Positions 12,980-31,555 of a stretch of 33,467 bases of DNA are shown in pieces. Position 1 is the first letter of the stretch; each line of letters begins with the position of its first letter. The notes under the pieces were generated by a model. That model ran no database searches, was not told the DNA's origin, and saw only the letters and a program-made list of their open reading frames with translations. Both the position numbers and the translations under genes were made by a program. Location: NCBI GenBank assembly GCA_016926755.1, contig JAFGNZ010000187.1:1-33467 (forward strand). The letters are read 5' to 3'. This DNA is from Myxococcaceae bacterium. Lineage in GTDB: Bacteria > Myxococcota > Myxococcia > Myxococcales > Myxococcaceae.

Positions 12980-15220
12980 TCACCCCGCCTTCCTGGCCGC
13001 GTGGCAGGGCAGCTCCAGGGTGAAGGTGGCCCCACGCCCCAGCCCCTCGCTGTGCGCCGTCAACGAGCCCTCCATCTCCTGCGCCGCCAGGGCGCTGGAG
13101 TGCAGGCCGAAGCCGTGCCCCTCCTCGCGGGTGGTGAAGCCGTGCTGGAAGATGCGCGTGAGCAGCTCCGGGGCGATGCCCTCGCCCGTGTCGCTGACCT
13201 CGATGCGGATGCGGTCGGCCGCGGGCTGCTCCAGCTTCAGCCTCAGGATCCGCTCACCATCGGGCTTCTTGTCCAGGGCGTACTTGGCATTGCTGATCAG
13301 GTTGACCAGGATCGTCAGCAGCCGGTGCTTGTCGAGCATCATCGGCGGCAGGTGCTGCAGGTGCCGCTCCACCTTCACCTCGTGGCGGCCGAGCGCGGCC
13401 TCGTTGATGCGCAGGGCGTCCTCCATCAGCTCCGCCAGATCGACCGATTCTTGTAGCGAGCCCATCCTGGCATAGCGCTGCTGCAGCTTGACGATGGTGC
13501 CGATGTGGTCGGAGTACCGGAGGATGTCACCGAGCAGCGTCTGGAGCTCCTGGCGCTCGCCCTTCAGGTGCTCCCCCAGCTCCTTGAGGAAGGGCAGCAT
13601 TCGTTGCCCGCGCCCGTCCTGGGTGAGGAAGGCGGCGAGGTCGCTCTGGTGCTCCTCGAGCAGGGTCACCGCCCGGCTCACGCTCTCGAGCTTCAACCCA
13701 CCCAGCCGCTCCGCCGCTACCCGCGCCGAGGTGTGGACGCTGTTGAGCACGTTGCCCACGTTGTGCAGCACGCTGGTGGCGATCTCCGCCCGGCCGGCCT
13801 GTCGTGCCGTCTCCAGCAGCCGCTGGTGGACCTCCTTGAGCTCGTGGGTGCGCTCGTCGACTCGCTGCTCCAGCCCCTCGTTGGCCCGCCGCAGGGACTC
13901 CTCGCGCTGCTGGACCTCGCCGGCCATCAGCTGGAAGGCCTGTGACAGCCGCCCCAGCTCGTCGCCTCGCGACGTGTCCAGCTTGAGCTTGAAGTCCCCG
14001 GCGGCCACCCGATCCGCGGCCTGGGTGAAGGTCAACAGCGGGCGGGTGATCTGCTGCCTGAGCACCCAGTACATGATCATCAGCTCCAGGAGCAGCGACC
14101 CCACGCCAAACAGCAGCACGTAGCGCGAAGCCGCGAAGGCGGCCGAGCTCACCACATGCCCGGGGAGCACCGTGACGAAGTTCCAACCGGGGCCCTTCAG
14201 CCGCGCCACGGCGATGTACTCGTCATACCCTGGCAGATGCAGCACGACCTGGCCCGGCTTCCGGTTCTTCACCAGCTCGAGGATGCTCCTCAGGTGTTCC
14301 CGATTCTCTCCGGCGTCGAGCCGCGCTTCCCCGGGGTGCGCCTCGGTGCTCAGGATGTGGAAGCCGCTGGTGGCGCCTTCCGTCTTCATCGCGGGGTGCG
14401 CGATGAGCTGGCCGTCATCGCGCAGGAGCATGTTGTACGCACCGGGCAGGTTCTCCTGGATGGTGCGGGTCATCAGCTCCGGGAGGAGAATATCGTGGTT
14501 GATCGTCGCGACGTGGCGGCCGTTCATGTCCAGCGGGGTGGAGGCGGAGACCCCCCACAGCTTGGAGACGGGCTCCGCGATGATGCCACTCCAGACCGTC
14601 CGCCTCTGCGGGTTGTTCTCGGGCGCGCTGATGGTGAAGTACTCGTGGGAGGTGATCGGCAGGTCGGGCGGGGCCTCCAGGCACCAGGTGGCGGCCTCCG
14701 GCCAGTAGCCCAGCGCCACCCCCTCGGGCAGCATGACGTAGGTGTTCATGAAGCGGACGTGGAAGGCGGGCCCGTACTGCTCGGTCACCTCACGCGCGGC
14801 CAGGATCCGGCGGCGCAGCTCCGCGTTGACGTTCACGCCCCTGACGACGAAGACGCACGACATCTTCGTGCCGTCGAAGCTCTCGGGGCGGTTGCGGATG
14901 GTGCCGTCGGGCAGCCGCGCGAGCACGCTGTCGAAGCGGGCGCTCGGATCCTCCTGGCCGAAGGAGCGGATCCGCTCCTCCAGGGCGTTCTTGAGAATGG
15001 CGAGGTTGTCCTCCGCCTGCACGAAGAGGGCCTGCTCCCGCTGGGTGCGCTCCGTGACGTACCGGTCGAGCTGCTGGAGGGTCTCGGCGCGCATGGCGCT
15101 GAGCATGTGGAGGTAGCTGAAGAAGGTGGCCAGGGCGATGACCACCGCGATGCGCACCCCCATGCTGAGGAGCGTCGAGCGGGCGAGCGAGGTGCGAGGG
15201 CTGGATGGAGGGGAGGTCAT
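12980..15220 (-). CDS. Membrane-bound sensor histidine kinase (periplasmic sensor, HAMP)
   Basis: A 746-residue kinase from the ATG at 15220. Membrane segment one is about residues 20-40. A large extracytoplasmic region (about 42-360) has the look of a Cache-type sensor, including ITSHEYFTISAPENNP and LWGVSASTPLDMNGRHVATINHDI. Membrane segment two is about 366-387, then HAMP (388-440), a coiled coil, phosphoacceptor His486 in [11 protein letters not shown] box NLISNAKYAL, DTGEGIAPE and HGFGLHSSA. An ATG at 15250 is an alternative start; neither has a strong ribosome binding site. It is divergent from a stand-alone receiver at 15541, its likely partner. It is convergent with the Blh gene. The ligand is unknown. 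Confidence 0.87.
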   Translation of the reverse strand: MTSPPSSPRTSLARSTLLSMGVRIAVVIALATFFSYLHMLSAMRAETLQQLDRYVTERTQREQALFVQAEDNLAILKNALEERIRSFGQEDPSARFDSVLARLPDGTIRNRPESFDGTKMSCVFVVRGVNVNAELRRRILAAREVTEQYGPAFHVRFMNTYVMLPEGVALGYWPEAATWCLEAPPDLPITSHEYFTISAPENNPQRRTVWSGIIAEPVSKLWGVSASTPLDMNGRHVATINHDILLPELMTRTIQENLPGAYNMLLRDDGQLIAHPAMKTEGATSGFHILSTEAHPGEARLDAGENREHLRSILELVKNRKPGQVVLHLPGYDEYIAVARLKGPGWNFVTVLPGHVVSSAAFAASRYVLLFGVGSLLLELMIMYWVLRQQITRPLLTFTQAADRVAAGDFKLKLDTSRGDELGRLSQAFQLMAGEVQQREESLRRANEGLEQRVDERTHELKEVHQRLLETARQAGRAEIATSVLHNVGNVLNSVHTSARVAAERLGGLKLESVSRAVTLLEEHQSDLAAFLTQDGRGQRMLPFLKELGEHLKGERQELQTLLGDILRYSDHIGTIVKLQQRYARMGSLQESVDLAELMEDALRINEAALGRHEVKVERHLQHLPPMMLDKHRLLTILVNLISNAKYALDKKPDGERILRLKLEQPAADRIRIEVSDTGEGIAPELLTRIFQHGFTTREEGHGFGLHSSALAAQEMEGSLTAHSEGLGRGATFTLELPCHAARKAG

Positions 15221-15540
15221 GGCTCGGGTGGGCGGTGAGAGCTGCCGCATCGTATCGCGTCGCGCCTCGGGCGCTTCAGGCCCAGGTGCTCTCGCCGAGA
15301 GGCCCGCCTGGTGCTCGGCCAGCCGCGCGTGCGGCCTACCCTGAAGATCATTCCCTGAGCCGCCCTGAGCAGCTCCACTCACCCGCCCAGAGTGGGTGGG
15401 GAACTGGCAGGCAGGCACGAGAGCGCACGAAGGTCGTAGCCATGAGACACGAGGGCTAGATATAGCAATGATACCGGACGGCCTCGGTACGTGACGGGCT
15501 ATCGCCTCAGGCTCGCCATCTCCTGGCTGAGGAGCTGTGC
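15221..15540. other. Divergent intergenic region, kinase/response regulator
   Basis: 320 bases between two divergent genes, so promoters for both are expected here. Around 15374-15400, CCACTC pairs with GAGTGG, and CACCC pairs with GGGTG, giving two mutually exclusive small hairpins. Near 15450-15475 the sequence is locally AT-richer (GATATAGCAATGATA). I could not assign clear -35/-10 boxes. No coding frame looks real. Confidence 0.5.
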
Positions 15541-16035
15541 ATGAGTGAGACGAAGAGACGCATCCTGATCATTGACGACTCCGAGGCCATCCACACCGAC
15601 TTCCGCCGGGTGCTCTGCCCGAAGCCCCCCAACCGCGGCAAGGTGCTGGACCTCATGGAGGAGGAGCTCTTTGGCGAGGACTCCTCCCGCGAGGTGCCTT
15701 CCGAGCTGGAGTTCGAAGTGGACTCCGCCTTCCAAGGCCAGGAAGCGCTCGCCATGGTGAGGCAGGCCCAGGAGGCCGGCCGTCCCTATGATCTGGCCTT
15801 CCTGGATTACCGGATGCCTCCCGGCTGGAACGGCTTGGAGACCTTGCGACACCTGCGGAGGGTGGCCCCCTCGCTGCCGGTGGTGCTCTGCTCGGCCTAT
15901 TCGGACTACTCCTGGGAGGAGATCCTCCGGGAGTTCGGCGAGTCCCAGCTGCTGGAGGAGATGAGGAAGCCCTTCGACAGCCAGGAGCTGCGCCAGCGGG
16001 CGCTGGCTCACGTGTCCTCGAGCGCGGCTCCGTAA
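15541..16035 (+). CDS. Stand-alone response regulator (receiver domain with insertion)
   Basis: A 164-residue CheY-like receiver with no output domain. The acidic pair is Asp12-Asp13 (ILIIDDSEAIH), the phosphoacceptor is Asp89 in FLDYRMPPGWNG, Ser118 lies in LCSAYSD, and Lys143 lies in MRKPF. About 35 residues (24-58) are inserted between the first helix and second strand, rich in acidic residues. Receivers are usually about 120 residues. It starts at ATG 15541, with AGGAG six bases upstream. It is divergent from the membrane kinase, which suggests a two-component or phosphorelay pair passing phosphate to another protein. It is convergent with the prenyltransferase gene. Confidence 0.9.
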   Translation: MSETKRRILIIDDSEAIHTDFRRVLCPKPPNRGKVLDLMEEELFGEDSSREVPSELEFEVDSAFQGQEALAMVRQAQEAGRPYDLAFLDYRMPPGWNGLETLRHLRRVAPSLPVVLCSAYSDYSWEEILREFGESQLLEEMRKPFDSQELRQRALAHVSSSAAP

Positions 16036-16071: not shown

Positions 16072-17922
16072 TCAGGCGGCGCTGAGCTGCTTGGCCGGCT
16101 GGAAGATCGTGGCGTCCGGCACCTCGGGCAGGAAGAACGCCGGGGCCGCCGATTCACGCGGGGCCAGCACGCCATAGGCCTCGGTGGCCAGGTAGAAGGT
16201 GGTGCGCACATGGCCGTCCTCGCGGCGCATGGAGGCCCACTGGATGAGGCCCACGCCCGCATCGAGCGGCCGGTTGGCCAGCGCCCACACGGCCCGGTCC
16301 AGCACCGCGTGGCTCTTGGGATCGAGCACCGTGCGGATGCGGCGCAGCGCGTCCCGATCATTGTCCGCGTAGCAGCGGATGGGGCAGTGCATCGTCGCGC
16401 TGTAGGGCCGGGCGTCATCGTCCGAGGTGAAGGCCCAGCAGGTCTCCGTGGAGCGGGGCGCCGAGTAGCACTCATCCTCCCCCTGGATCGCCCGGCAGAA
16501 CGCCTGCACCTCGCCAGGCAGGTACTCCTTGGCCTGGGACATCGCGTACTCGAGATCCGCCGGCCCGGCGTCCCGGTGGGCGATGTAGATCTTCACGCGG
16601 GAGACCTTCTGCCCCGACAGATCCAGGGAGAAGTAGTGGAGGTAGTCCTTGGCGCCGCGCCGCATGACGACCTCGGAGAGGAAGCGCCAGGCGTTGGCGA
16701 AGCCCAGGCGGGCCAGCGCCTCCTTGACCAGCGCGTTGGCGTGCTCGGGGCCGCGCGCCTGCGGGTTCAGGTAGAGCTTGATCTCGGCTCGGCCGTCAGG
16801 CTTGAGGCAGAAGGCGTGCCAGAGCGAGAAGCGCGCCTGCGGGTTGCGCGGCTCGAACAGATCCTTGACCTGCTCGAAGCGCTCCAGCGGGACGCCGAAC
16901 TCCTGGTTCAGGCGCTGGTTGAGGGCCAGGCCGTCATCCCAGCTGGACTGGAGGGTGGTGGCGCTGTTCTGCGCCTCGATGAGGAAGCGGATCTCCGGCC
17001 GGTCCGCCTCCAGGGCCAGCGACAGCTCGAAGGGGGTGTGGTCGTCCGTGATGTCGGACTTCCACGGCGAGCTCTCACCGATGCGGCGCGTCCCCCAGGG
17101 GCTCGCCATGAAGGTGAAGTAGCGCTGCACCTTCTGGGTATCCGCGGAGGTGAAGCCGCACGCCCTGCACAGGGCCTCGATGCGCGAGTTGCCGAACTCC
17201 AGGAAGGTCTGCTCGGCGATCCAGTCGGAGACGGACGGAGGCCGGAGGGGCTTCTCCTGGCACTGGAACCAGCGCATCACGTAGTCGAGCAGGTGGTCGG
17301 CCACGTGGCCGACGATGGCGAAGACCTCGTCGATGCTGGCCAGGATCTCCTGCTCGAGCTCCGGAGACACCGCCTCCAGCTCGACGTCAGCGGCGCGCCA
17401 GGGGCGCAGATCGAAGGCCGCGCGCAGCGAGCGGATGCTGGAGATCTGCTTGCGGGTGCTGGCCTCGAACTCGCGCGCCACCTGCTCCAGGGCCGCGAGG
17501 CACTCGGCGCCCACGGTCTCGAGGGTCAGCAGCAGCACCCGGCGACGGGCGGAGTCCGTCTCGATCAGGGCCAGGGACATGACGTCGTGGAGCGTCTCGC
17601 GCACCAGGCCGCAGTCCTCGCCCCACAGCAGCTGCAGCATGGAGTTCAAGTTCGCCAGCGAGTGGAGATCCAGCGACTGGAGATCCTTGAGGAACGGGGC
17701 CCAGTGAGGGTTCTCCGCGGGCGACAGCTGCTCCTCGGGGAGCTCCTCACCGCGGAGGCTGCGGGCCAGCTCGCCAGAGCCCATGACCAGGGGCGCGACG
17801 CAAGGCAGGAAGCGGAGGCGATCTTGAGGGGCGAAACTGGAGTCCCGGAGGAAAGTCAAGAAGGGCGAAACGGCAAAGGCTTGTTGCTGCTCCTTCAGGT
17901 ACTCCAGGACCCGCGTCGTCAT
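16072..17922 (-). CDS. DMATS-type aromatic prenyltransferase with N-terminal heme-oxygenase-like helical domain
   Basis: A 616-residue fusion. Residues about 230-616 are a DMATS-type (ABBA) prenyltransferase. They contain TDDHTPFELS (292-301), with Glu299 at the place of the catalytic glutamate of fungal enzymes; IRFLIEA (Arg312); KLYLNP (Lys382, Tyr384); SRVKIY (Arg442, Lys444, Tyr446), the diphosphate-binding set; a CPIRCYADND segment (513-522); and FYLATEAY (576-583). Such enzymes attach dimethylallyl groups to indole or other aromatics in natural products. Residues 1-220 are helical and resemble heme-oxygenase-like proteins (PFLTFLRDSSFAPQDRLRF, then NPHWAPFLKDL). Metal ligands there are uncertain. 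The strong ribosome site GAGGGAGG lies five bases before the ATG. The gene is isolated, with no biosynthetic cluster beside it. Substrate and product are unknown. Confidence 0.82.
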   Translation of the reverse strand: MTTRVLEYLKEQQQAFAVSPFLTFLRDSSFAPQDRLRFLPCVAPLVMGSGELARSLRGEELPEEQLSPAENPHWAPFLKDLQSLDLHSLANLNSMLQLLWGEDCGLVRETLHDVMSLALIETDSARRRVLLLTLETVGAECLAALEQVAREFEASTRKQISSIRSLRAAFDLRPWRAADVELEAVSPELEQEILASIDEVFAIVGHVADHLLDYVMRWFQCQEKPLRPPSVSDWIAEQTFLEFGNSRIEALCRACGFTSADTQKVQRYFTFMASPWGTRRIGESSPWKSDITDDHTPFELSLALEADRPEIRFLIEAQNSATTLQSSWDDGLALNQRLNQEFGVPLERFEQVKDLFEPRNPQARFSLWHAFCLKPDGRAEIKLYLNPQARGPEHANALVKEALARLGFANAWRFLSEVVMRRGAKDYLHYFSLDLSGQKVSRVKIYIAHRDAGPADLEYAMSQAKEYLPGEVQAFCRAIQGEDECYSAPRSTETCWAFTSDDDARPYSATMHCPIRCYADNDRDALRRIRTVLDPKSHAVLDRAVWALANRPLDAGVGLIQWASMRREDGHVRTTFYLATEAYGVLAPRESAAPAFFLPEVPDATIFQPAKQLSAA

Positions 17923-18205: not shown

Positions 18206-18538
18206 TCAGTGGGTCACTTTTGGATCCGCTTCCTGCTTCTCGGCGAGCCGGCTGATGGAAGGCTCGTCGGCCAGGAGCTCTTCAAAGCACGTGGCCACCA
18301 TGTGCCCCGAGGCCGTCGAGTCGCAGCGCAGCACACGCAGCCTGGCGCGTGGGAGGTTCAGCTCGGGGATGCTCACCTCGAGCAGCTCGCCGGCCTGGAG
18401 AGGGAGCGCCGTCATCAAGAGGCAGCCGCTGGCCGAGGCGTTGACGATGGAGGCGTCCAGTTGCTCACTCCCGCGGTGGAGCTTGATGGCCAGGCGCAGG
18501 GTGTAACGTGGGTGCCGCCGCCGTTCGTGTTGAGACAC
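18206..18538 (-). CDS. PilZ-domain protein
   Basis: A 110-residue single-domain PilZ protein. The cyclic-di-GMP binding motifs are present: an arginine-rich N-terminal RRRHPR (Arg7 and Arg11 as RxxxR) and NASASG (33-38, NxSxxG). It should bind c-di-GMP and act as a cytoplasmic effector, perhaps on motility or envelope processes, but no partner is encoded nearby. The start is GTG at 18538, with AGGAG about seven bases upstream. It reads in the same direction as the prenyltransferase gene but is separated from it by 283 bases with their own promoter-like signals. Confidence 0.88.
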   Translation of the reverse strand: MSQHERRRHPRYTLRLAIKLHRGSEQLDASIVNASASGCLLMTALPLQAGELLEVSIPELNLPRARLRVLRCDSTASGHMVATCFEELLADEPSISRLAEKQEADPKVTH

Positions 18539-18678: not shown

Positions 18679-19698
18679 TCAGGGCCGAGGCGGCTCTGCC
18701 AGGCGCTCGAAGAGGGCCTGGACCCGGGCGGCGCCGGACTCAAGGTTGAGCGCGAAGTACCAGTAGCGCTCCAGCTCGATGGCGCTCCTCCGGAGCTGCA
18801 TCACCCCCTGGGTCTTGTGCTCGGCGATCGCCCAGTCGACCACGATGTTGTAGTCGAGCCGGTCGCGGAACCCGAACCTCCGCGTGCGATCGAACTCGAA
18901 CACGCACCCCGGGCGCACGTCCGCCCGCGGCTGGCCCGGCACGCCGGCGTACGAGAAGTCCTCCGCCTCCGGGATGGGGAACCCCTGCCGGTGCTCCTCG
19001 GCCACCGCCCTCCGGCGGGTATGCCCGGAGGTGCCCAGGACCAGCGGCCGCTCGTGTGGCGCCAGGCCCGCCACCACCTCCAGTGCGAGGAGGGCCGAGG
19101 CGCGGTGGTGGGAGTGCGTGAGCGGCAGGGGCAGCATCACGAAGAGGAAGTCGTACCGGCCCTGGAGCAGCAGCTCCCCCAGGCGCCGCCGGATGAAGTC
19201 CGTGTCCCAGCCCTCGATCGCCGTCGCGCCCGCCGCGTCGATGGTGAAGCCGGGATCCGGCTGATCCAGGAAGACACACTCGCGCAGCCCGAGGATCCGA
19301 GCCGAGGCTCGAAGCTCCTGCTCGCGGATGCGCGCCAGGTGGACGCGGGCGACCTCGGGGTCCGTGAGCTTCAACCCATAGAGAGGCTCGGCCAGGGTGG
19401 CGGCTCGGTATCCCCCCTCTCCGCGGGTGAGCACTGCCAGGTCCACCTGCCCTCCGTGCGAGTGGGAGAGCTTGTACACCGCGCCCCCGAAGAGCGTCTC
19501 GTCGTCGGGGTGGGCAGTCACGATCAGGACGCGCGGGGGGCGGTCCTCCAACACCGGGCCCGGAGGAGGAGAGGGAGGGGAATGCACGGGGGCAGCAGAT
19601 AGGAGCCTCCGTGCATGGTCAAGCGCGGCCCGGGGACGCGGGCGCGCCCAGCCGTCGGTCCATGAGCTGAGCTCAGGCGTGTGCCGATGCTCCGGCAT
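18679..19698 (-). CDS. PIG-L family deacetylase
   Basis: A 339-residue zinc hydrolase of the PIG-L/LmbE family. The hallmark TAHPDDE (61-67) supplies the zinc ligands His63 and Asp66, and the catalytic Asp65. A distal HSHHR supplies the second His cluster. These enzymes remove N-acetyl groups from amino sugars, mycothiol precursors or glycolipid/antibiotic intermediates. The first about 50 residues are proline-rich, not conserved in type, and could be an over-long start; no strong ribosome binding site supports the ATG at 19698. That start overlaps the end of the upstream SRPBCC gene by 26 bases, so the two are probably one operon. The substrate is unknown. Confidence 0.85.
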   Translation of the reverse strand: MPEHRHTPELSSWTDGWARPRPRAALDHARRLLSAAPVHSPPSPPPGPVLEDRPPRVLIVTAHPDDETLFGGAVYKLSHSHGGQVDLAVLTRGEGGYRAATLAEPLYGLKLTDPEVARVHLARIREQELRASARILGLRECVFLDQPDPGFTIDAAGATAIEGWDTDFIRRRLGELLLQGRYDFLFVMLPLPLTHSHHRASALLALEVVAGLAPHERPLVLGTSGHTRRRAVAEEHRQGFPIPEAEDFSYAGVPGQPRADVRPGCVFEFDRTRRFGFRDRLDYNIVVDWAIAEHKTQGVMQLRRSAIELERYWYFALNLESGAARVQALFERLAEPPRP

Positions 19699-21520
19699 CG
19701 GGCCGGGAGGGCAGGGCCTCCGATGGCCGCCTGCGCGCTGCTTCGACGCGCTGCTTCAGCCCCCGCAGCATGCGCCGGTCCATCACGAACCCGATCGACT
19801 CGATGAGGTACGGGCCGTACAGGACCCGCTGGCGCAGGCCCTCGCCAGAGTAGGCCAGGCGGAAGCGGCTGATGAAGCGGGTGCGCCCGCCGGGCAGCGG
19901 CTCGAGGAAGAACAGCCAGGAGGCAGCGATCCGCTCCGGGCCGGACGCTTCCGGCGTCTCACCCTTGGTGGACCACGAGTCGGCGTGGGCGCTGATCCAG
20001 CGGCCGGGCTCGACGGCGACGATGGGGATCACAGGCATGCGAGGGTGCAGTCGCAGCACGTCGCCCGGTGAGATCGCCAGCCACTCGGGATGGATGCGGT
20101 CGGCGTTCTGGATGTCGCAGCCAGCGAGGTTCTCCAGGAACTGGTAGCTGTAGAGGCCGCCCTTGTCCTGCCCCATCTGCGCCACCCAGGGCCAGACCTG
20201 TTGGGGCGGAGCATCGATCTCGATGCCGTGGGTCCAGCTCCACTTCGGGCGGGGGATGCGATCATCGCCGGGGTACGGGCGTGATGCGGTCGCTTCATCG
20301 AGCCCCCAGTGCGAGCGGAGCGGGCGGAGGAACGGCGTGGCCAGGTCGAACAGGATCCCGAGCGCCCCGAGGATCCCCTCGCCCACGTCCCGTGCCGTGT
20401 CGTGCGAGCGGCGCAGGCGCCCCTCGGCACGTGCCTTGAGGTTGCGCAGCTGCTCGGCCTGCATGAAGTGGTGCACGGGGCGTATCCACAGGGCGTGCAG
20501 CCGCGCATCTTCCGGGAAGTTGACCCGTCCTCGGGCATGGAGCCGGGTGGTGCGCGCATCGCGCGGCTCGAGGACGAAGGCCCACGTCACCTGCCAGTAC
20601 TTGAGGGGGCGCTCGGAGGAGGCAAAGGGGAGCTGGCGCTGGTGCTCGAGATCGTACAGGCCCCCGAGCACCAGCGCGCGAGGGGCATCTACTCGGAGGA
20701 CCTCGAAGCCGTCCGTGCCTTTCGGGGTGCCAGGGAGCACGTCGCCTGGCTTGATGGCTTGGAGCTCCGGGTGGAGCTCACGCGCGCTCGGGACTCCCGC
20801 GTTGTCGAGGAAGTCATAGCTGTACCAGCCTGCGCGGTGGCAGCCCATCTGGACGAGCCACGGCCAGATCTGCTCCGGCGGAGCGTTGATGGTGATGGCG
20901 TGCGTCACCTGCGCGGGAGAGCCGCCGAGCAGCTCGTCGCCAGCAAGTGCGAGCTCCTCCTCTGCGGACTCCGGCGTCCCCAGCTGCCTGCCCAGGATCG
21001 CCAGCATGTGCCTCCGGATGAAATGCGAGAGCGGGGCGATGAGGCGGTGGTAGCGGCGGAGCTCGCGCCACGACTCCTCGTCCGTGGCGGTCAGCCGCAG
21101 CTCGAACACCATGCGTGAGCCGGTGCCGCCGAGCGGCTCGACGCGGACGCACCAGGCGACCTTGCCCCAGCCGGGTTCATCGAACTGGGCGAACTGCTCG
21201 GGGGCCACTTGCTTGAATGGAATCCGCAGCTCCCAGAACCGCCCGATGGCCCCGACGACGAACCCCCGTCCCGGCTGATCCGCGAGGAAGCGAAAGTCCG
21301 AGGCCTCGTTGGCGAGGTCGTCGAGGCTCAGGCGCACGGGCCCGCTCGCCCGCCCCATGAGTCGATCCGGCACCGTGCGCACGGCAAAGAGCCCACGGAC
21401 GAGGGAAGAGGACGCGAGGTCCATGTGCCGTGCCGCCTGGTAGGCGGTCTCGGGGGGGACGGCGAGATCGAGGTGATCGACCTCGATCAGTCGGGGCTCT
21501 GGAATGAATGGCTCGAGCAT
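19673..21520 (-). CDS. Triple SRPBCC/START-like domain protein
   Basis: A 615-residue protein with three ligand-binding-fold (SRPBCC) units in tandem. Domain one is about residues 1-215 ([20 protein letters not shown]). Domain two is about 225-430 ([40 protein letters not shown]). Domain three is about 450-615 ([39 protein letters not shown]). Domains two and three are clearly related repeats. The fold binds hydrophobic ligands and includes polyketide cyclases and START proteins; no catalytic residues are evident. The ATG at 21520 is chosen because GGAGG lies four bases upstream, and the longer frame to 21922 has low-complexity sequence. It is followed by the overlapping PIG-L gene. Confidence 0.82.
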
Positions 21521-21955
21521 GATGCCTCCAGGCGGAGATGCGGGGGCGGGGCCGTGGCTGGGCGCGGGCGGGCTCCTGGGCCTCAGGCTCATGGGTGCAC
21601 ACCCTCCGCACCGGGGGCGCCACCGCGCGTGGCAAATGCCAGCAGGGGGAGCAGGGAGGCGGAGGCCCGGCTCCTCCCAGGCCGAAGCGCGCAAACGCAG
21701 CACCTCGGCGCTCACCGGCGCAGCCCTTGCGGGCTTCACCGAGTCACAGCCCTGGCGGGCGTGGGCACACGCGGTGCAATGCCTGACTGGACCCGATTCA
21801 CCGAGGGGTTGAGGGTGGTGCGGGCGACCGCTGGGCGCGCAAGGCGTGCATCCAAGCCTGGCCACCCGCAGGCCTTGCGTGCGAGCGCCAGTGCTCCAGG
21901 CGGTCCCCGTGGGCACCCTCATTGCAGTGACCGACTAGAGGAGGGCTCAGGCTCC
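21521..21955. other. 435-base divergent intergenic region
   Basis: Lies between the SRPBCC gene (leftward) and the exporter operon (rightward), so it should hold promoters for both. It contains CGCAAGGC near 21838 and its complement GCCTTGCG near 21873, able to form an eight-base stem. The plus-strand frame is open throughout but has no coding character. No clear promoter boxes, terminators or RNA gene were recognised. Confidence 0.5.
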
Positions 21956-22689
<734 letters not shown>

Positions 22690-22696
<7 letters not shown>

Positions 22697-25059
22697 GGGC
22701 GATCGATCGCAAGCTGCTGAGGGATCTGTCCCTGCTGAAGGGGCAGGTGGCGACGATCGCGCTCGTGGTGGCGGCGGGCATCACGGCGTACGTGTCCACC
22801 TTCAGCATCTACCGCTCGCTGTCCACCTCGCAGCAGGCGTACTACGAGCGGGCGCGGTTCGCGGACGTCTTCGCCCGGCTGGAGCGGGCCCCCAACGCCG
22901 TGATGGAGCAGGTGGCGACGCTGCCCGGCGTGGCGCAGGCGGAGGCGCGGGAGGTGGAGACCGTCCTGCTGGACATGCCGACCCTGGCCGAGCCGGTGGT
23001 GGGGCAGATCGTCTCCATCCCAGGCAGGGGCCTGCCGCTGCTCAACCAGCTCCACCTGCGCGCGGGGCGCATGGTGGAGCCAGGGCGCTCCAATGAGGTG
23101 GTGGTCAACGAGGCCTTCTTCGAGGCGCATGGCCTCGAGCTGGGAGATCGCATCCTGGCGCTGGTGAACGGCCGACGGGTGGCCCTGCGCGTGGTGGGCG
23201 TGGCGCTGTCCCCCGAGTTCGTCTACGCCGTGCCGCCGGGCGGGTTCTGGGACGACAACCTGCGCTTCGGCATCTTCTGGATGGACCGCGACGTGCTGGC
23301 GGCGGCCTTCCGGATGGAGGGGGCCTTCAATGATGTCATCATCCGGTTGGCCCCGGGCGCCAACCCCGAGGCCGTGGTGGACGCGCTGGACCGGGTGCTG
23401 AAGCCCTATGGGGGGCTGGGGGCGTACCCCCGGGACAAGCAGATCTCGGATCGGTACGTCACCTCGGAGATCCAGCAGCTCAAGGGGAACGCGACCGTGG
23501 TGCCCGTCATCTTCCTGGGCGTGGCGGCCTTCCTCGTCAACGTGGTGCTCTCCCGGCTCATCGGCACGCAGCGCGAGCAGATCGCCGCGCTCAAGGCGCT
23601 CGGGTACTCGGATGTGACGGTGGGGGCGCACTACCTGAAGCTGGTGATGGTGGTGGTCGGGCTGGGCGCGGTGGGGGGCGTGGCCATGGGCGTGTGGGCA
23701 GGGCGCGCGCTGATGGGCCTGTACACCGAGGTGTTCCGCTTCCCGCTGCTGACGTTCCGGCTGGATCTGGGGACGGTGGTGGGCTCCATCCTCTTCAGCG
23801 CCGGTTCGGCGGTGGTGGGGGCGCTCGCGGCGGTGCGGCAGGTGGTGCGGCTGCCTCCCGCGGAGGCCATGAGGCCGCTAGCGCCGCCCACGTACCGCCC
23901 GTCGCTCCTGGAGCGCAGCGGCTTCCACCGGCTGTTCTCCCAAGGGGGGCGGATGGTGCTCCGGGATCTCGAGCGGCGTCCGGTGCGGCTGCTGCTCTCC
24001 TCCCTGGGCATCGGGCTCGCGGTGGCCATCCTCATCGTGGGCAGCTTCTCCATCGACGCGGTCCGCTACCTGATGGACGTCCAGTACGGACAGGTCCAGC
24101 GCGAGGCGCTCTCGCTGACCTTCTCCCGGTCGGTCCCGGATCGCGTGCGGCGCGAGCTGGAGCACATCCCCGGCGTGCTGCACACCGAGCCCTTGCGCAT
24201 GGTGCCGGTGCGCCTGGTGGCGGGCCCCCGGAACTACGAGACGGCCATCCAGGGGCTGCCCGCGGGGGGGGAGCACCGGCAGGTGCTGGACGCGGAGCGG
24301 CGGCCGGTGGCGCTGGCGGGGGAGGGGTTGATGCTCGGCCGCGAGCTGGCGCGGCGCCTGGGCGTGGGCGTGGGGGATGCGCTCCGCGTCGAGGTGCAGG
24401 AGGGCGGTCGGCCCGTGCGCGAGGCCCGGGTGGTGTACCTGGTGGACGATCTGATCGGGCTCTCGGCGTACATGGAGATCGGAGCGCTGGATCGACTGAT
24501 GGGGGATGACCGGACCATCACGGGGGCCACCCTGTCCGTGGACCGGGCGCGGATGGACGAGATCTACGCGCGCATCAAGGAGCTGCCCCTGGTGGCGGGC
24601 GTCGGGCGGACGGACCTCTTCAAGCAGCAGTTCGAGAAGCAGGTGGCCGAGGTGATGGTGGTGTTCACCTTCGTGCTCGCGGTCTTCGCGGCGGCCATCG
24701 CGGTGGGCGTCGTCTACAACAACGCGCGCATCGCCCTGGCGGTGCGCGCCCGGGATCTCGCCAGCCTGCGCGTGCTGGGGTTCACCCGGCGGGAGATCTC
24801 CCTCATCCTGCTGAGCGAGATCGCCGTCAGCCTGCTGCTGGCGCTGCCCATGGGACTGGTGCTGGGCAAGGTGTTCGCCATCGGGGTGGCGAGCGTGGCC
24901 GTGGACTCGGAGCTGTTCCGCCTCCCCCCGATCATCGAGCCGAGCACCTACGCCTTCGCCGTCCTCGTGGTGCTGGCGGCCGGCGTGGTGAGCGCGCTGC
25001 TCGTGCGCAGGCGGCTGGATCACCTGGATCTGATCGGCGTGCTCAAGACGCGAGAATAG
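22690..25059 (+). CDS. ABC transporter permease with two FtsX modules
   Basis: A 789-residue permease. A first membrane helix (about 20-38) is followed by a periplasmic domain (about 40-265). A three-to-four-helix FtsX module spans about 268-396 and contains [13 protein letters not shown] second helix lies at about 430-457, followed by a second periplasmic domain. A second FtsX module covers about 652-772 and contains [14 protein letters not shown]. This duplicated layout is common in exporters of hydrophobic molecules or lipoproteins. It works with the coupled ATPase upstream and the membrane fusion protein ten bases downstream. The substrate is unknown. The outer-membrane channel is not encoded in this window. 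Confidence 0.9.
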
Positions 25060-25068
25060 GAGCCATCC

Positions 25069-26271
25069 ATGAAGAAGAAGTGGATCAAGAGAGCCCTGCT
25101 CGCGGTGCTGGTCCTCGGCCTGGTGGGGGCCATCGCCTCGGCGTACCGGCCACGGCCCGTGGAGGTGGATGTGGGGGAGGTGACGCGCGGGCCCTTCGAG
25201 GTGACGGTGACGGAGCCCGGCAAGACGCGGGTCAAGGATCGGTACGTCATCTCCGCGCCGGTGGGCGGGCACCTGGAGCGCATCACCCTGCGGCCCGGGG
25301 ATGCGGTGGAGGCGGGGCAGGGGATCGCCCGGCTGGGCTCGCTGGATCCGCCGCTGCTGGACGCGCGCTCTCGGGCCCAGGCGGACGCGCAGGTGCGGGC
25401 GGCGGTGGCGGCGCGGGAGCAGGCGGAGGCGGGGCTGAAGCGGGCCCAGTCGGCGCTCGAGTTCGCGCGGGTCGAGGTGGCGCGGCAGGAGAAGCTCGCG
25501 GCCGCGGGGAGCGTGACGGCGCAGGCCCTGGAGGCGGCCCAGTTCGAAGAGCGCAGCCGGGCGCAGGAGCAGGCCTCCGCCCAGTCGGCCGTGCGCATCG
25601 CCGAGCAGCAGCTCGAGATGGCGCGCGCGGCGCGAGGGCGGATGGAGCGGCGGCCAGAGGCGCACGAGCAGCTGGAGATCCGGGCGCCTGTCCAGGGCTG
25701 GGTGCTGCGAGTGATGCAGGAGAGCGAGGGGGCCGTGGCGGCGGGAGCGCCGCTGATGGAGATTGGCGATCCGGCGATCCTCGAGGCGGTGGTGGACGTG
25801 CTGTCCCAGGACGCGGTGCGCATCCAGCCCGGGGCGCGCGTGCGCATCGAGCATTGGGGTGGGGAGCATCCGCTCGCGGGGCGGGTGCGCCGGGTGGAGC
25901 CCGCGGCCTTCACGCGGGTGTCCGCCCTGGGGGTGGAGGAGCAGCGCGTCAACGTGGTCATCACCCTGGAGGAGCCGGTGGAGCGGCGCAAGGCGCTGGG
26001 GGACGGGTACCGGGTGGAGGCGCGCATCACGCTGTGGGAAGGGGCGGAGGTGGTCCAGGTGCCCGAGAGCGCGCTGTTCCGCCAGGGGGAGGGGTGGGCG
26101 GTGTTCCTCGCGCGGGAGGGGCGCGTGCGCTTGCACGCGGTGAAGCTGGGGCAGCGCAACGGCCTCCGGGCGCAGGTGCTGGAGGGGCTGGCGCCAGGGG
26201 ATCAGGTGATCGTCCACCCCGGTGATAGCGTGAAGGATGGGGTAGCGTACACAGAGCGGCCCAAGGCTTGA
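25069..26271 (+). CDS. Membrane fusion (HlyD/RND-type) periplasmic adaptor
   Basis: A 400-residue adaptor with an N-terminal anchor (about residues 8-27). A lipoyl half-domain (VISAPVGGHLERITLRPGDAV) is followed by an alanine/glutamate-rich alpha-helical hairpin (about 100-205). The second lipoyl half has IRAPVQGWVLRV. A beta-barrel and membrane-proximal domain end in GLAPGDQVIVHPGDSVKDG. It should bridge the FtsX permease to an outer-membrane channel of TolC type, completing a tripartite exporter. The gene directly follows the permease in the same operon. Confidence 0.92.
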   Translation: MKKKWIKRALLAVLVLGLVGAIASAYRPRPVEVDVGEVTRGPFEVTVTEPGKTRVKDRYVISAPVGGHLERITLRPGDAVEAGQGIARLGSLDPPLLDARSRAQADAQVRAAVAAREQAEAGLKRAQSALEFARVEVARQEKLAAAGSVTAQALEAAQFEERSRAQEQASAQSAVRIAEQQLEMARAARGRMERRPEAHEQLEIRAPVQGWVLRVMQESEGAVAAGAPLMEIGDPAILEAVVDVLSQDAVRIQPGARVRIEHWGGEHPLAGRVRRVEPAAFTRVSALGVEEQRVNVVITLEEPVERRKALGDGYRVEARITLWEGAEVVQVPESALFRQGEGWAVFLAREGRVRLHAVKLGQRNGLRAQVLEGLAPGDQVIVHPGDSVKDGVAYTERPKA

Positions 26272-28398: not shown

Positions 28399-28854
28399 TC
28401 ACGGGGGAGTGAGGCCTCCCCCGGGCTCCGGAGCGGCCGCCCGCGAGCGCTCCCACCACCCGAGGAGCCACATGCCGCCGAACATGGAGGAGACGAAGAG
28501 CACCACCAGGCCGCTCTCCGAGGCGAGCGAAGTCAGCGCGGGGCCCGGGCAGTAGCCCGCGAGCCCCCAGCCCGCGCCGAACAGGGCGGCCCCGGAGAGC
28601 AGGCGCTTGTCCACCCGCGTCTGGGAGATCACAGGGAAGGCTGGGGCCAGCACGGGGGCCCGACGGCGGCGGATGAGCCAGGAGAGGGGCGCGTGCACAG
28701 CGAGCGCTCCCCCCATCACGAAGGCGAGGGTGGGATCCCAGGCGCCCGCGACGTCCAGGAAGGCCTGCACGCGGGCCGGCTCCGTCATCCCTCCCAGGCC
28801 CAGTCCCAGCGCGAAGAGGAGCCCGGCCACTCCGGCGGTCAGCAGCGAGCTCAT
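28399..28854 (-). CDS. YeeE/YedE-family protein, second half (PmpB-like)
   Basis: A 151-residue membrane protein of about four helices. It carries [13 protein letters not shown] with a conserved Cys, the hallmark of the C-terminal half of YeeE/YedE (TsuA) thiosulfate transporters; single-chain members are about 350 residues. Its ATG overlaps the stop of the first-half gene as ATGA, so the two half-size proteins are made together and probably pair. It is the last gene of the sulfide-oxidation operon. Confidence 0.85.
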
Positions 28855-29279
28855 GGCGCACCTCCGAGGACGTGACGGACGAGGAAGACAGTGACGGCGC
28901 CCGTCGCCATGAAGGTCAGGGTCGCCACGATCGAGCGGGTGGCGCCGCGGGAGATGCCGCACACGCCGTGTCCGCTGGTGCAGCCGTTGCCCAGCTTCGT
29001 GCCGATCCCCACCAGGAGCCCGGCGGCCACCACCCACGCCGCCCCGGGGACGGTGGGGGCTCCCAGCGCCTGGGGCCAGAGGGCCCGGACCAGGAAGCCA
29101 CCACCCACCAGGCCGAGCAGGAAGGTGATGCGCCAGGACAGCTCGGCGCGGGTGCGGTGGGCAAGGAGGCCACCCGCGATCCCGCTGATGCCGGCGATCC
29201 GGCCATTGAAGAGGAGGAGGAGGGAAGCGCTCAGGCCAATGAGCGCGCCCCCCATGAGCGCGGTGAGGAAGGGGTGCAT
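28851..29279 (-). CDS. YeeE/YedE-family protein, first half (PmpA-like)
   Basis: A 142-residue membrane protein from the ATG at 29279. It carries [15 protein letters not shown] with two Cys, the conserved sulfur-relay motif of the N-terminal half of YeeE/YedE transporters. These import thiosulfate or related sulfur species by successive cysteine contacts. A TTG at 29315 would add 12 residues but overlap the upstream gene. It lies ten bases after the TSUP stop, within the operon. Confidence 0.85.
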
Positions 29280-29289
29280 GGTGAGAACT

Positions 29290-30225
29290 TCAAGGAGCAG
29301 GGGTGGAGCCGTCAATCACGGATTTGGGTGTGACGGCGGGCTCGCCAGGGCGGGAGCCTGCCCAGCGCGCCCCCACGAGCGACAGGCTCGCCAGGACGAG
29401 CACCAGCACGGCGAGGCCAGCGCCCAGGGCCGTCGCCCACCCGGAAGACAGGTGGAGGAGCAGCGTGGACAGCTCGCGCGAGAGGATGAAGACGCCGAGC
29501 GCCAGGGAGAAGATCGCGAAGCCCCTGCGCAGCCGATCAGGGGAGAGGCCTTTGCCCAGCCGGGCCCCGAGGAGCGTGCCGATGATGGAGGCCGCCGACA
29601 TCCCCCCGGCGAGCGCCCAGTCCACGCTCGCGCCGGCCTGGGTGGCGCTGACGAGCCCCGAGCCGGAGTTGAGCGTGATGACGAGCAGCGAGGTGGCCAC
29701 GGCGCGAGGCATGGACAGCCCGCCGAAGAGGGCCAGCGCGGGCACCACCATGAAGCCGCCCCCCGCGCCCACCAGGCCCGTCAACAGGCCCACGCCGAAG
29801 CCGTTGCGCAGCACGACGGACAGGCGCCGCTCCGCAGGAGGCTCCTCGGAGCGGGGATCCTGGGCGGGGCGCTTGCGCAGCAGGGCCCGGGCGGTGGTGA
29901 GGACCATCACCGCGAAGGCGGCGAGCAGCAGCGCCGGGGGGACGAACCTCCCCAGGTGGCCCCCCACCGCCGCGCCCACCATGCCCGCGGCGCCGAAGAG
30001 CAGCCCCACCCGCCACTCCACCCGTCCGGCCCGCGCGTGCGAGAGCGCACCGATCGCGCTCGTCACTCCCACCACCACCAGGGAGGTGGCGATGGAGTCG
30101 CGTGGATTCACGCCGAGCACGTACACGAGGATCGGCACCGTCAGCAGCGAGCCCCCGCCGCCGAGCAGCCCGAGGGAGAGGCCCGCCACCAGCGAGAGGG
30201 CCGCGCCGAGCACGAGCATCATCAT
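29290..30225 (-). CDS. TSUP (TauE/SafE) family permease
   Basis: A 311-residue permease with eight to nine helices and the two-fold repeat typical of the family: [20 protein letters not shown] near the N-terminus and [20 protein letters not shown] in the second half. TSUP proteins export sulfite, sulfoacetate or other sulfur anions. The N-terminal ATG ATG ATG run begins at 30225 and overlaps the rhodanese stop as ATGA; the longer frame to 30456 merely reads antisense to nothing useful and is rejected. Context suggests removal of sulfite or thiosulfate produced by persulfide oxidation. Confidence 0.9.
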
Positions 30226-30824
30226 GACCGGGGCTCCTCCGGCTCCGGGACGAGCGCCACCCGATCCCTCATCCGCCGCAGCAGGTGCTCGATGGCGTCC
30301 GCGGCCATGCCATCCGCGCGGGCCCGCGCCCCCACCCGCTCGAGCGCCTGGAGGAGCTCCCTCCGGGTCGGGCTGGGGAAGGCAGAGGGGCCCTCGAAGA
30401 AGCTCTCGCAGGGAGGCGGGGTGAGGGGGCCATAGAGCTCGCGCACCGCGGCGCACAGGGCGTCGCGCACCTGGCCGGCGCTCACGCGCGTGCCTGGGGA
30501 CTGGCCTTCGATCTCGAAGCCCGCCTCGTTCACCGCGAGCATTCCGCCCTCGAGGTTGTAGAGCGCTTGGAAGCCCATCGCCTCCAGCAGCCGCGCCGCC
30601 TTCATGGAGCGCGCGCCCGAGCGGCAGATCAGCAGCAGCGGCTCGGTTCGCAACCAGGGCTGCGCGACGATGGTGAGGGTGGAGAGCGGGACCAGCTCGG
30701 AGCGAGGCAGGTGCCCGAGGATTCCCTCGAACTCGTCCGGCTCGCGGACGTCGATGCGGCGGATCGAGGGGGGCAGGGTGTGCAGCTCACGGGGAACGAT
30801 GGAGTGGATCGGCGCAGAGGACAT
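30222..30824 (-). CDS. Rhodanese-domain protein with C-terminal extension
   Basis: A 200-residue protein. Residues 1-103 are a rhodanese domain with IDVREPDEFEG and the active-site loop CRSGAR (Cys67-Arg72), followed by LEGGMLAVNEAGF. The cysteine carries persulfide sulfur, moving sulfane sulfur between glutathione persulfide, sulfite and thiosulfate. Residues 104-200 form a helical extension with PFxSPTRREL-like content (PSPTRRELLQALERV) that I do not recognise as a named domain. It lies 32 bases after the persulfide dioxygenase gene and overlaps the TSUP start. Confidence 0.87.
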   Translation of the reverse strand: MSSAPIHSIVPRELHTLPPSIRRIDVREPDEFEGILGHLPRSELVPLSTLTIVAQPWLRTEPLLLICRSGARSMKAARLLEAMGFQALYNLEGGMLAVNEAGFEIEGQSPGTRVSAGQVRDALCAAVRELYGPLTPPPCESFFEGPSAFPSPTRRELLQALERVGARARADGMAADAIEHLLRRMRDRVALVPEPEEPRS

Positions 30825-30856
30825 GAGGTTCTCAGGTGGGCGTGCGAGCGTGGCGC

Positions 30857-31555
30857 TCAGGCCTGGGGCGTCGTGGAGCTGAGGCCGCAGGCGCGGTTGG
30901 CGGGCACCGCGAGATCGAGCTTCTTCGGAGGTGGCAGGTGGAGCTCGGCCATGATCTGGATGAAGTCGTCGCGAGTCTTGCCGGCCAGGCGAGGGTTGAA
31001 GCGCCTCTCCTCTCCGATGCTCGTCACCGTGCGGCCCTTGTAGTCATGGCCGGGGTACACCAGCGTCTCGTCCGACAGCTGGAAGAGCACCTGGGTGATG
31101 GCGTCGTAGAGCTGCCCGGCGTTGCCGTTCTGGAAGTCCGTGCGCCCGTTGCCGCGCACCAGGAGCGCGTCTCCGGTGAAGACGCGGTCCTCCAGCAGGT
31201 AGCTCACGCTGTCATCCGTGTGGCCCGGCGTCGCGAGCACCTGGAACGTGAGCCCGCCCACGTGGAGGCGCTCGCCGTGCCGGGCATGGACGTTCGCGCA
31301 GGAGGCCCCCCCCGCGCCCGCCACCACCGTGCACCCGGTGCGCTCACGCAGCTGGCCCGAGGCCGTCACGTGGTCCGCGTGCACGTGCGTCTCCAGCACG
31401 TGCGTCAGCGTCAGCCCCAGCTCCTTCACCAGGGTGAGGTCCCGCTCGAGCTGCTCGAGGACGGGATCGATCAGGGCCGCCTGTCGGGAGACGGGATCGG
31501 CAACCAGGTAGGTGTACGTCGAGGACTCAGGGTCGAAGAGCTGTCGGAAGATCAT
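30857..31555 (-). CDS. ETHE1-type persulfide dioxygenase
   Basis: A 232-residue metallo-beta-lactamase-fold protein. The signature is THVHADH (His57, His59, Asp61, His62), followed by ATPGHTDDS, FTGDALLVRGNGRTDFQNG and HDYKGRTVTSIGEERRFNPRL. These are hallmarks of ETHE1-type Fe(II) persulfide dioxygenases, which oxidise glutathione persulfide to sulfite. Length matches the family. The ATG has AGGAGGG about seven bases upstream. It is first gene of a leftward operon (dioxygenase, rhodanese, TSUP, YeeE pair) and has a sigma54-type promoter upstream. Confidence 0.93.
   Translation of the reverse strand: MIFRQLFDPESSTYTYLVADPVSRQAALIDPVLEQLERDLTLVKELGLTLTHVLETHVHADHVTASGQLRERTGCTVVAGAGGASCANVHARHGERLHVGGLTFQVLATPGHTDDSVSYLLEDRVFTGDALLVRGNGRTDFQNGNAGQLYDAITQVLFQLSDETLVYPGHDYKGRTVTSIGEERRFNPRLAGKTRDDFIQIMAELHLPPPKKLDLAVPANRACGLSSTTPQA

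Follow-up and report, generated by a model that had tools for sequence, protein, structure and literature searches.

What might a protein do in which a heme-oxygenase-like (HO-like) domain is joined to a prenyltransferase of the DMATS type? This question is raised by an open reading frame in a 33,467-nucleotide stretch of DNA from a member of the Myxococcaceae (contig JAFGNZ010000187.1), referred to here as the window. An initial annotation of the locus suggested that this one protein might oxidise and prenylate the same aromatic substrate. Our analysis points instead to a tryptophan dimethylallyltransferase carrying a pseudo-oxidase module derived from an AetD-like enzyme, with the side chain of the prenylated tryptophan being removed in trans, and we put the probability of this reading at roughly two in three. 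In the following, HDO designates an HO-like diiron enzyme and psiHDO its pseudo-oxidase derivative.

The fusion gene and its prenyltransferase half

The reading frame is uninterrupted over 616 codons and is preceded by a putative ribosome-binding site, GGGAGGCACAATG. The gene and the parts of its prenyltransferase half are located as follows:

16072..17922, (-) strand: psiHDO-DMATS fusion gene, 616 aa, ATG start, stop codon at 16072-16074
17257..17922, (-) strand: N-terminal domain, residues 1-222, AetD-like HO fold, degenerate in catalytic residues
16141..17211, (-) strand: DMATS prenyltransferase domain, residues 238-594, delimited by profile, sequence and fold matches
17026..17049, (-) strand: TDDHTPFE, residues 292-299, including E299, read from the sequence
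16762..16782, (-) strand: IKLYLNP, residues 381-387, including K382 and Y384, read from the sequence
16576..16599, (-) strand: RVKIYIAH, residues 442-449, including R442, K444 and Y446, read from the sequence

The claimed joining of an HO-like domain to a DMATS domain is real. Five further full-length copies of the same architecture, 53-77% identical, were found in the window genome (G000) and in two relatives, and the fusion is therefore not due to chance; an artefact created by a lost stop codon was rejected because there are six full-length copies.

The C-terminal part matches Pfam PF11991 at 4e-15 (56.5 bits, above the cut-off of 25) and NCBIfam TIGR03429 at 8.5e-30, but the latter score of 104.3 bits lies below the curated cut-off of 163.85. 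With a full-length model of middling quality (pLDDT 79.1, pTM 0.62), the top structural matches were the bacterial enzymes 6-DMATS, 5-DMATS, PriB and IptA, with a TM to target of 0.88-0.91 (for 6zrx, E 1.1e-22 and TM 0.90), and the PDB titles of the best-matching DMATS structures name tryptophan or indole prenyltransferases. The 6-DMATS of Micromonospora (6zrx), the 5-DMATS of S. coelicolor (6zrz), PriB (5inj) and IptA (7w8u) are 28-32% identical to the window domain and have the catalytic and prenyl-diphosphate residues in common with it. However, the solved bacterial DMATS chains are only ∼345-405 residues long and are matched over almost their full length, whereas the window protein adds a 220-residue N-terminal pseudo-oxidase domain.

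We take E299 of TDDHTPFE to be the catalytic glutamate, and K382, Y384, R442, K444 and Y446 are presumably the prenyl-diphosphate residues, with roles as in FgaPT2-type enzymes. All of these, together with R312, are present in the window protein, and the whole set is retained in 23 of the 24 related domains, window included. The motifs initially reported are present, TDDHTPFE at residues 292-299 and RxKxY as RVKIY starting at R442, but the label 'fungal-type' given to the former is not correct, since this motif is common to bacterial DMATS and the nearest solved relatives are bacterial, not fungal. Judged from these sequence features, the C-terminal half is most likely a bacterial L-tryptophan dimethylallyltransferase that would prenylate the benzene ring at C5 or C6.

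An AetD-like fold that has lost its iron site

AetD is a nitrile synthase that converts tryptophans into indole-3-carbonitriles and acts on ring-brominated tryptophan. Residues 1-222 of the window protein match AetD by sequence at 2.1e-11. When the N-terminal domain was modelled separately from 5 sequences (pLDDT 76.7, pTM 0.77, again of middling quality), Foldseek returned AetD first at 1.3e-6, all 21 matches at E up to 0.001 being AetD chains, and VIA-align gave AetD a Z of 15.7, with BesC next at 10.8. The predicted structure thus bears out the HO-like fold that had been proposed for this half and specifies it as AetD-like, AetD coming ahead of all other families. This seven-helix fold is shared with AetD (8ji3, 8tww) over residues 1-221, at 21-23% identity.

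In AetD, a dimer (PMC10654658, PMC11611611), the iron ligands are described as D76, H79, E140, H172, E176 and H179 (PMC10654658), and Y167 as holding the substrate carboxylate (PMC10654658, PMC11611611). The corresponding stretches of the window protein are:

17701..17715, (-) strand: ENPHW, residues 70-74, remnant of the alpha1 ligands (AetD D76 and H79 are E70 and H73)
17509..17523, (-) strand: LETVG, residues 134-138, remnant of the alpha2 ligand (AetD E140 is E135)
17398..17442, (-) strand: SSIRSLRAAFDLRPW, residues 161-175, the place of AetD Y167, H172, E176 and H179

The alpha1 ligand pair and the alpha2 glutamate are still recognisable in the window protein, so that three of the six iron ligands are kept (E70, H73 and E135). 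In contrast, none of the three ligands of helix alpha3 remains: Y167, H172, E176 and H179 of AetD have become S162, R167, D171 and P174 in the window protein, which lacks this set and is fused to a DMATS domain. Of 28 HO-like domains tabulated, the 22 that are not psiHDO-DMATS all have the six-ligand set (with D or E at position 76), whereas no psiHDO-DMATS copy has more than one of the three alpha3 ligands left, and all six have S or C at the Y167 position. No histidine is invariant across the six copies in the columns of residues 1-225. A misalignment of alpha3 was considered as an explanation, but HxxxExxH is absent from the alpha3 stretch of all six copies and there is no invariant histidine in this half. 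As a diiron oxidase, the N-terminal half looks dead.

In a tree of HDO domains, the six psi domains group together (100/100) inside a 19-row AetD-like clade (100/100); L053, L037 and L026 sit on long branches of the tree. In the DMATS tree, the AetD-linked class groups with the psiHDO class (10 rows, 99/96) and the Nostoc DMATS joins them next (95/91), but the psiHDO class alone has a support of only 84/77. Both trees and tables use 8 outgroup loci and omit L017 and L029, judged by eye to be near-copies of L018 and L028.

The N-terminal half contains no internal stop in any of the six copies, which come from two genera and all retain the psiHDO domain. Between these copies, pN is lower than pS in all 15 pairs. 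By the Nei-Gojobori method, which is rough for such GC-rich genes, dN/dS is 0.35-0.65 for the N-terminal domain and 0.22-0.56 for the DMATS domain; dN is higher in the N-terminal domain in all 15 pairs, but dN/dS in only 10 of them. This rough measure suggests that the domain is under purifying selection and is not plainly decaying.

Pairing of DMATS and HO-like genes

We surveyed 195 genomes of the phylum with PF11991 at E up to 1e-6 and obtained 15 loci in 9 genomes, the genes around them being called with a crude custom GC-frame script. At every one of the 15 loci, the DMATS gene is fused to an HO-like gene, overlaps one or has one no more than 5 kb away. Twelve are fused to an HO-like domain (6 psiHDO-DMATS, 2 DMATS-AetD-like and 4 DMATS-HDO of another subfamily); an AetD-like gene overlaps the DMATS gene by 4 bases in G043 and G046 and lies 4.5 kb from it in G081. 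Since a DMATS-bearing genome contains 3 to 12 HO-like matches, the chance of meeting one no further than 5 kb from a randomly chosen position is ∼0.3-1.4% per genome and locus, by a naive count that includes overlaps.

Both halves are intact by sequence in the sister fusions L008 and L009, as well as in L003, a DMATS-HDO fusion on contig C210 of the window genome. A sixteenth protein, L026 of G083, is the mirror image of the window protein: its HDO ligands are intact, with F replacing Y167, and its DMATS half has W, F, E and H in place of K382, Y384, K444 and Y446. It is encoded at L026:937-2727 on contig C4. Additional myxobacterial loci came from a named genome collection searched with two narrow peptide patterns, which yielded two DMATS-HDO fusions in L037 and one each in L038 and L039; in L036, an HO-like gene that scores 22.4 bits, under the Pfam cut-off, lies next to the DMATS gene. 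In one of the L037 fusions, the HDO belongs to another subfamily and has degenerated separately; an intact AetD-like gene comes 32 bases after this fusion. Together with the second DMATS-HDO fusion, these genes occupy ∼6 kb of a Polyangiaceae MAG (L037:9899-15958). PF14518 recognises L003, L011, L037b, L038 and L039 above its cut-off and L004, L008, L026 and the neighbour of L036 below it; it gives no match to the degenerate L037a, the window psiHDO or L053.

Beyond the Pfam-detected loci, no HO-like gene was found by profiles among the called genes of L121 and L122, near two distant DMATS-like genes of G062; these genes (29-30% identical) were missed by Pfam at 1e-6, and neighbourhood scoring of the two loci scored only the C1110 copy as DMATS. 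A short DMATS frame in L041 (Nannocystis) is without an HO-like match by custom profiles, which also missed the gene beside the L036 DMATS, first spotted by eye. L040 is truncated at its contig end. In L035 (Nostoc), a tryptophanase stands beside the DMATS gene, and there is no HO-like match on the 10.8-kb contig. Taken by sequence, tryptophan prenyltransferases and HO-like oxidases appear to have been fused repeatedly and in either order, and the fusions include intact proteins as well as proteins in which the oxidase or the prenyltransferase half looks dead.

Other genes recur in these neighbourhoods. In all six psiHDO-DMATS loci, the next upstream gene on the same strand is of the PilZ family, in the window as follows:

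18206..18538, (-) strand: PilZ-domain protein, 110 aa, GTG start (PF07238, 1.5e-11)

PF07238 is found in four of the other five PilZ-family genes, that of L042 being assigned by similarity only; relatives also occur near the AetD-like-only loci L054 and L055, and a regulator is possible. Six neighbourhoods of AetD-like or DMATS genes share a protein of ∼198 aa without a Pfam or NCBIfam match, represented by L042:11337-11933 on the (-) strand. FAD-linked oxidases of one family are found near the DMATS genes of L036, L037, L052 and L053, the L053 member matching cytokinin dehydrogenase. At L039:8966-13013, the DMATS-HDO fusion is followed by kynureninase-like and methyltransferase-like genes, which suggests a kynurenine/anthranilate branch, and L003:1477-3234 overlaps an O-methyltransferase gene (L048:11361-12428). 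In the window itself, the following further genes were noted:

12980-16035: sensor kinase (-) and response-regulator gene (+) beside the fusion
19673-21922, (-) strand: 749-aa frame with an SRPBCC (Polyketide_cyc2) match at 337-500 and no other Pfam match
22001-26271, (+) strand: ABC ATPase, MacB/FtsX-like permease and adaptor in a row, which look like a tripartite export pump
28399-31555, (-) strand: sulfur-linked run of DUF6691, Sulf_transp, TauE, rhodanese and metallo-beta-lactamase-fold proteins

A candidate prenyl-indole pathway and its alternatives

The prenyl-indole clusters of actinomycetes described in PMC3617294 combine a prenyltransferase with a tryptophanase (Type A) or a flavin mono-oxygenase (FMO; Type B), and Type B leads to 5-dimethylallylindole-3-acetonitrile. 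The myxobacterial loci likewise join a tryptophan prenyltransferase to a side-chain-processing enzyme, but in them the prenyltransferase is usually accompanied by an HO-like diiron oxidase, in many cases as a fusion, rather than by the tryptophanase or FMO of those clusters. By analogy, an AetD-like HDO could fill this place in myxobacteria, acting on prenyl-tryptophan as AetD does on ring-brominated tryptophan. The DMATS half would transfer a dimethylallyl group to tryptophan, and a second enzyme would then cleave off the side chain of the prenyl-tryptophan in trans: either an intact AetD-like HDO, yielding a prenylated indole-3-carbonitrile or a skatole, or a tryptophanase, yielding a prenylindole. 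The side-chain-cleaved product would be further oxidised, and the dead domain would persist as a module for structure, dimerisation or docking. The likely role of the window protein is prenylation alone; we infer its substrate and the function that the dead domain now has, as well as the order of the steps and the product.

Pfam searches of all 24 called genes of the window revealed neither a tryptophanase nor an FMO nor a second HO-like gene, so that any partner of the window copy would act in trans. The window thus lacks the tryptophanase or FMO that stands beside the prenyltransferase in Type A and B clusters, and the one tryptophanase match of G000 lies on contig C103. There it adjoins the second psiHDO-DMATS copy of this genome (L002), which also has P450 and StyA-like genes within 6 kb. 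Among the nine Pfam-DMATS genomes, G000 and G082 alone have a tryptophanase (E up to 1e-50), which in both adjoins a fusion (two of the six fusions). Besides L002, the window genome carries the intact DMATS-HDO L003 and a separate intact AetD-like HDO, L004, whose position numbering coincides with that of AetD. In G083, the fusion has a separate AetD-like gene at a distance of 1.3 kb, in which all ligands are present. Among the three psiHDO-DMATS genomes, G082 has a tryptophanase and no intact AetD-like gene, G083 shows the converse and G000 has both. G082 carries two psiHDO-DMATS fusions; its third HO-like match, on C17, falls into the other HDO subfamily, with whose rows it shares 54-56% identity, against no more than 31% with AetD-like rows.

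The proposal that one polypeptide oxidises and prenylates the same aromatic substrate finds a basis in the presence of an AetD-like fold and a DMATS domain in a single chain, and it does fit the sister fusions L008, L009 and L003, which are intact by sequence in both halves. For the window protein it fails, because three of the six iron ligands are gone and no histidine is invariant: inspection of the metal ligands gave no support for diiron chemistry, the whole alpha3 set and Y167 being replaced and no copy keeping more than one alpha3 ligand. An active diiron oxidase was accordingly rejected here, and we give a truly bifunctional enzyme next to no credence. The three residues that remain (E70, H73 and E135) might instead hold a mononuclear iron or another metal for a different chemistry, and a mononuclear deviation of HDOs is described as arising through the loss of two alpha3 ligands (PMC13108848). 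This is very improbable, since the alpha2 glutamate is K in L006, H in L002 and D in L019, and in the last of these the histidine is also replaced, by N.

If the domain has no chemistry of its own, it could serve for docking, as a subunit that associates with an intact AetD-like HDO and passes on prenyl-tryptophan. The dimeric state of AetD (PMC10654658, PMC11611611), the neighbouring AetD-like gene of G083 and the one that follows the DMATS-degenerate HDO fusion of L037 would agree with this, but the sole candidate partner found for the window copy is on another contig (C137), and G082, with two fusions, has no intact AetD-like gene. Docking to such an enzyme therefore cannot be the general role of the domain and was rejected as such; as an explanation of the domain we regard it as unlikely. 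The domain could also be a functionless left-over, carried along by fusion to a useful prenyltransferase, as its widely lost iron ligands and pocket residues and its higher dN than that of the DMATS half would suggest. However, pS exceeds pN in every pair, the fold is still recognisable and the domain persists in six of six copies from two genera, which makes this reading distinctly unlikely. The preferred reading, a tryptophan dimethylallyltransferase with a retained pseudo-oxidase module, has its own difficulties: a window with no recognised tryptophanase, FMO or second HO-like gene, a TIGR03429 score below the curated cut-off, the higher dN of the N-terminal domain in all 15 pairs, the missing AetD-like partner in G082, the support of only 84/77 for the DMATS halves of the six copies and models of middling quality.

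The separate AetD-like partners proposed in this reading would act like SktA, a skatole-forming HDO on ring-substituted tryptophan (PMC13108848). Position 146 is a ring-clamping Ile and position 142 an Ala in AetD (PMC10654658), and the latter is Thr in SktA (PMC13108848). The DMATS-linked AetD-like HDOs have Gly146 in 5 of 7 cases and, unlike SktA, Ala142 in 6 of 7 (as AetD; G in L053), whereas 5 of 6 without a known DMATS link combine Ala146 with the Thr142 of SktA. L004, near a contig end and with no known DMATS link, has Gly146 and Ala142. These residues give a weak hint that prenyl-tryptophan may be the substrate of the linked HDOs, a pattern that shared ancestry could explain. Myxobacteria do make prenylated indoles, as the indiacens of Sandaracinus illustrate (PMC9306752), the likeness to the DMATS-HDO family lying in the class of product proposed for the latter.

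As a tentative extension, to which we give somewhat less than even odds, DMATS and AetD-type or other HO-like oxidases may act on the same tryptophan in a third prenyl-indole pathway leading to ring-prenylated indole-3-carbonitriles or skatoles, with repeated fusion in both orders and with the dead halves of the window protein, L037 and L026 serving as scaffold or docking partner for an active enzyme in trans. There are hints that this pathway is not yet described. Among the matches listed in the open-access literature, we found no description of DMATS-HDO fusions and no report of prenylated indole nitriles or skatoles from myxobacteria, and the words 'prenyl', 'fused' and 'fusion' are absent from the text of the HDO review PMC13108848.

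One odd protein thus becomes a member of a small and testable family of tryptophan prenyltransferase/HO-like oxidase fusions. This family predicts a class of metabolites, the prenylated indole nitriles or skatoles, and offers a natural set in which the passage of a fused enzyme domain into a pseudoenzyme can be studied. It also suggests the HO-like oxidase as a third type of partner, beside the tryptophanase and the flavin mono-oxygenase of the actinomycete clusters.
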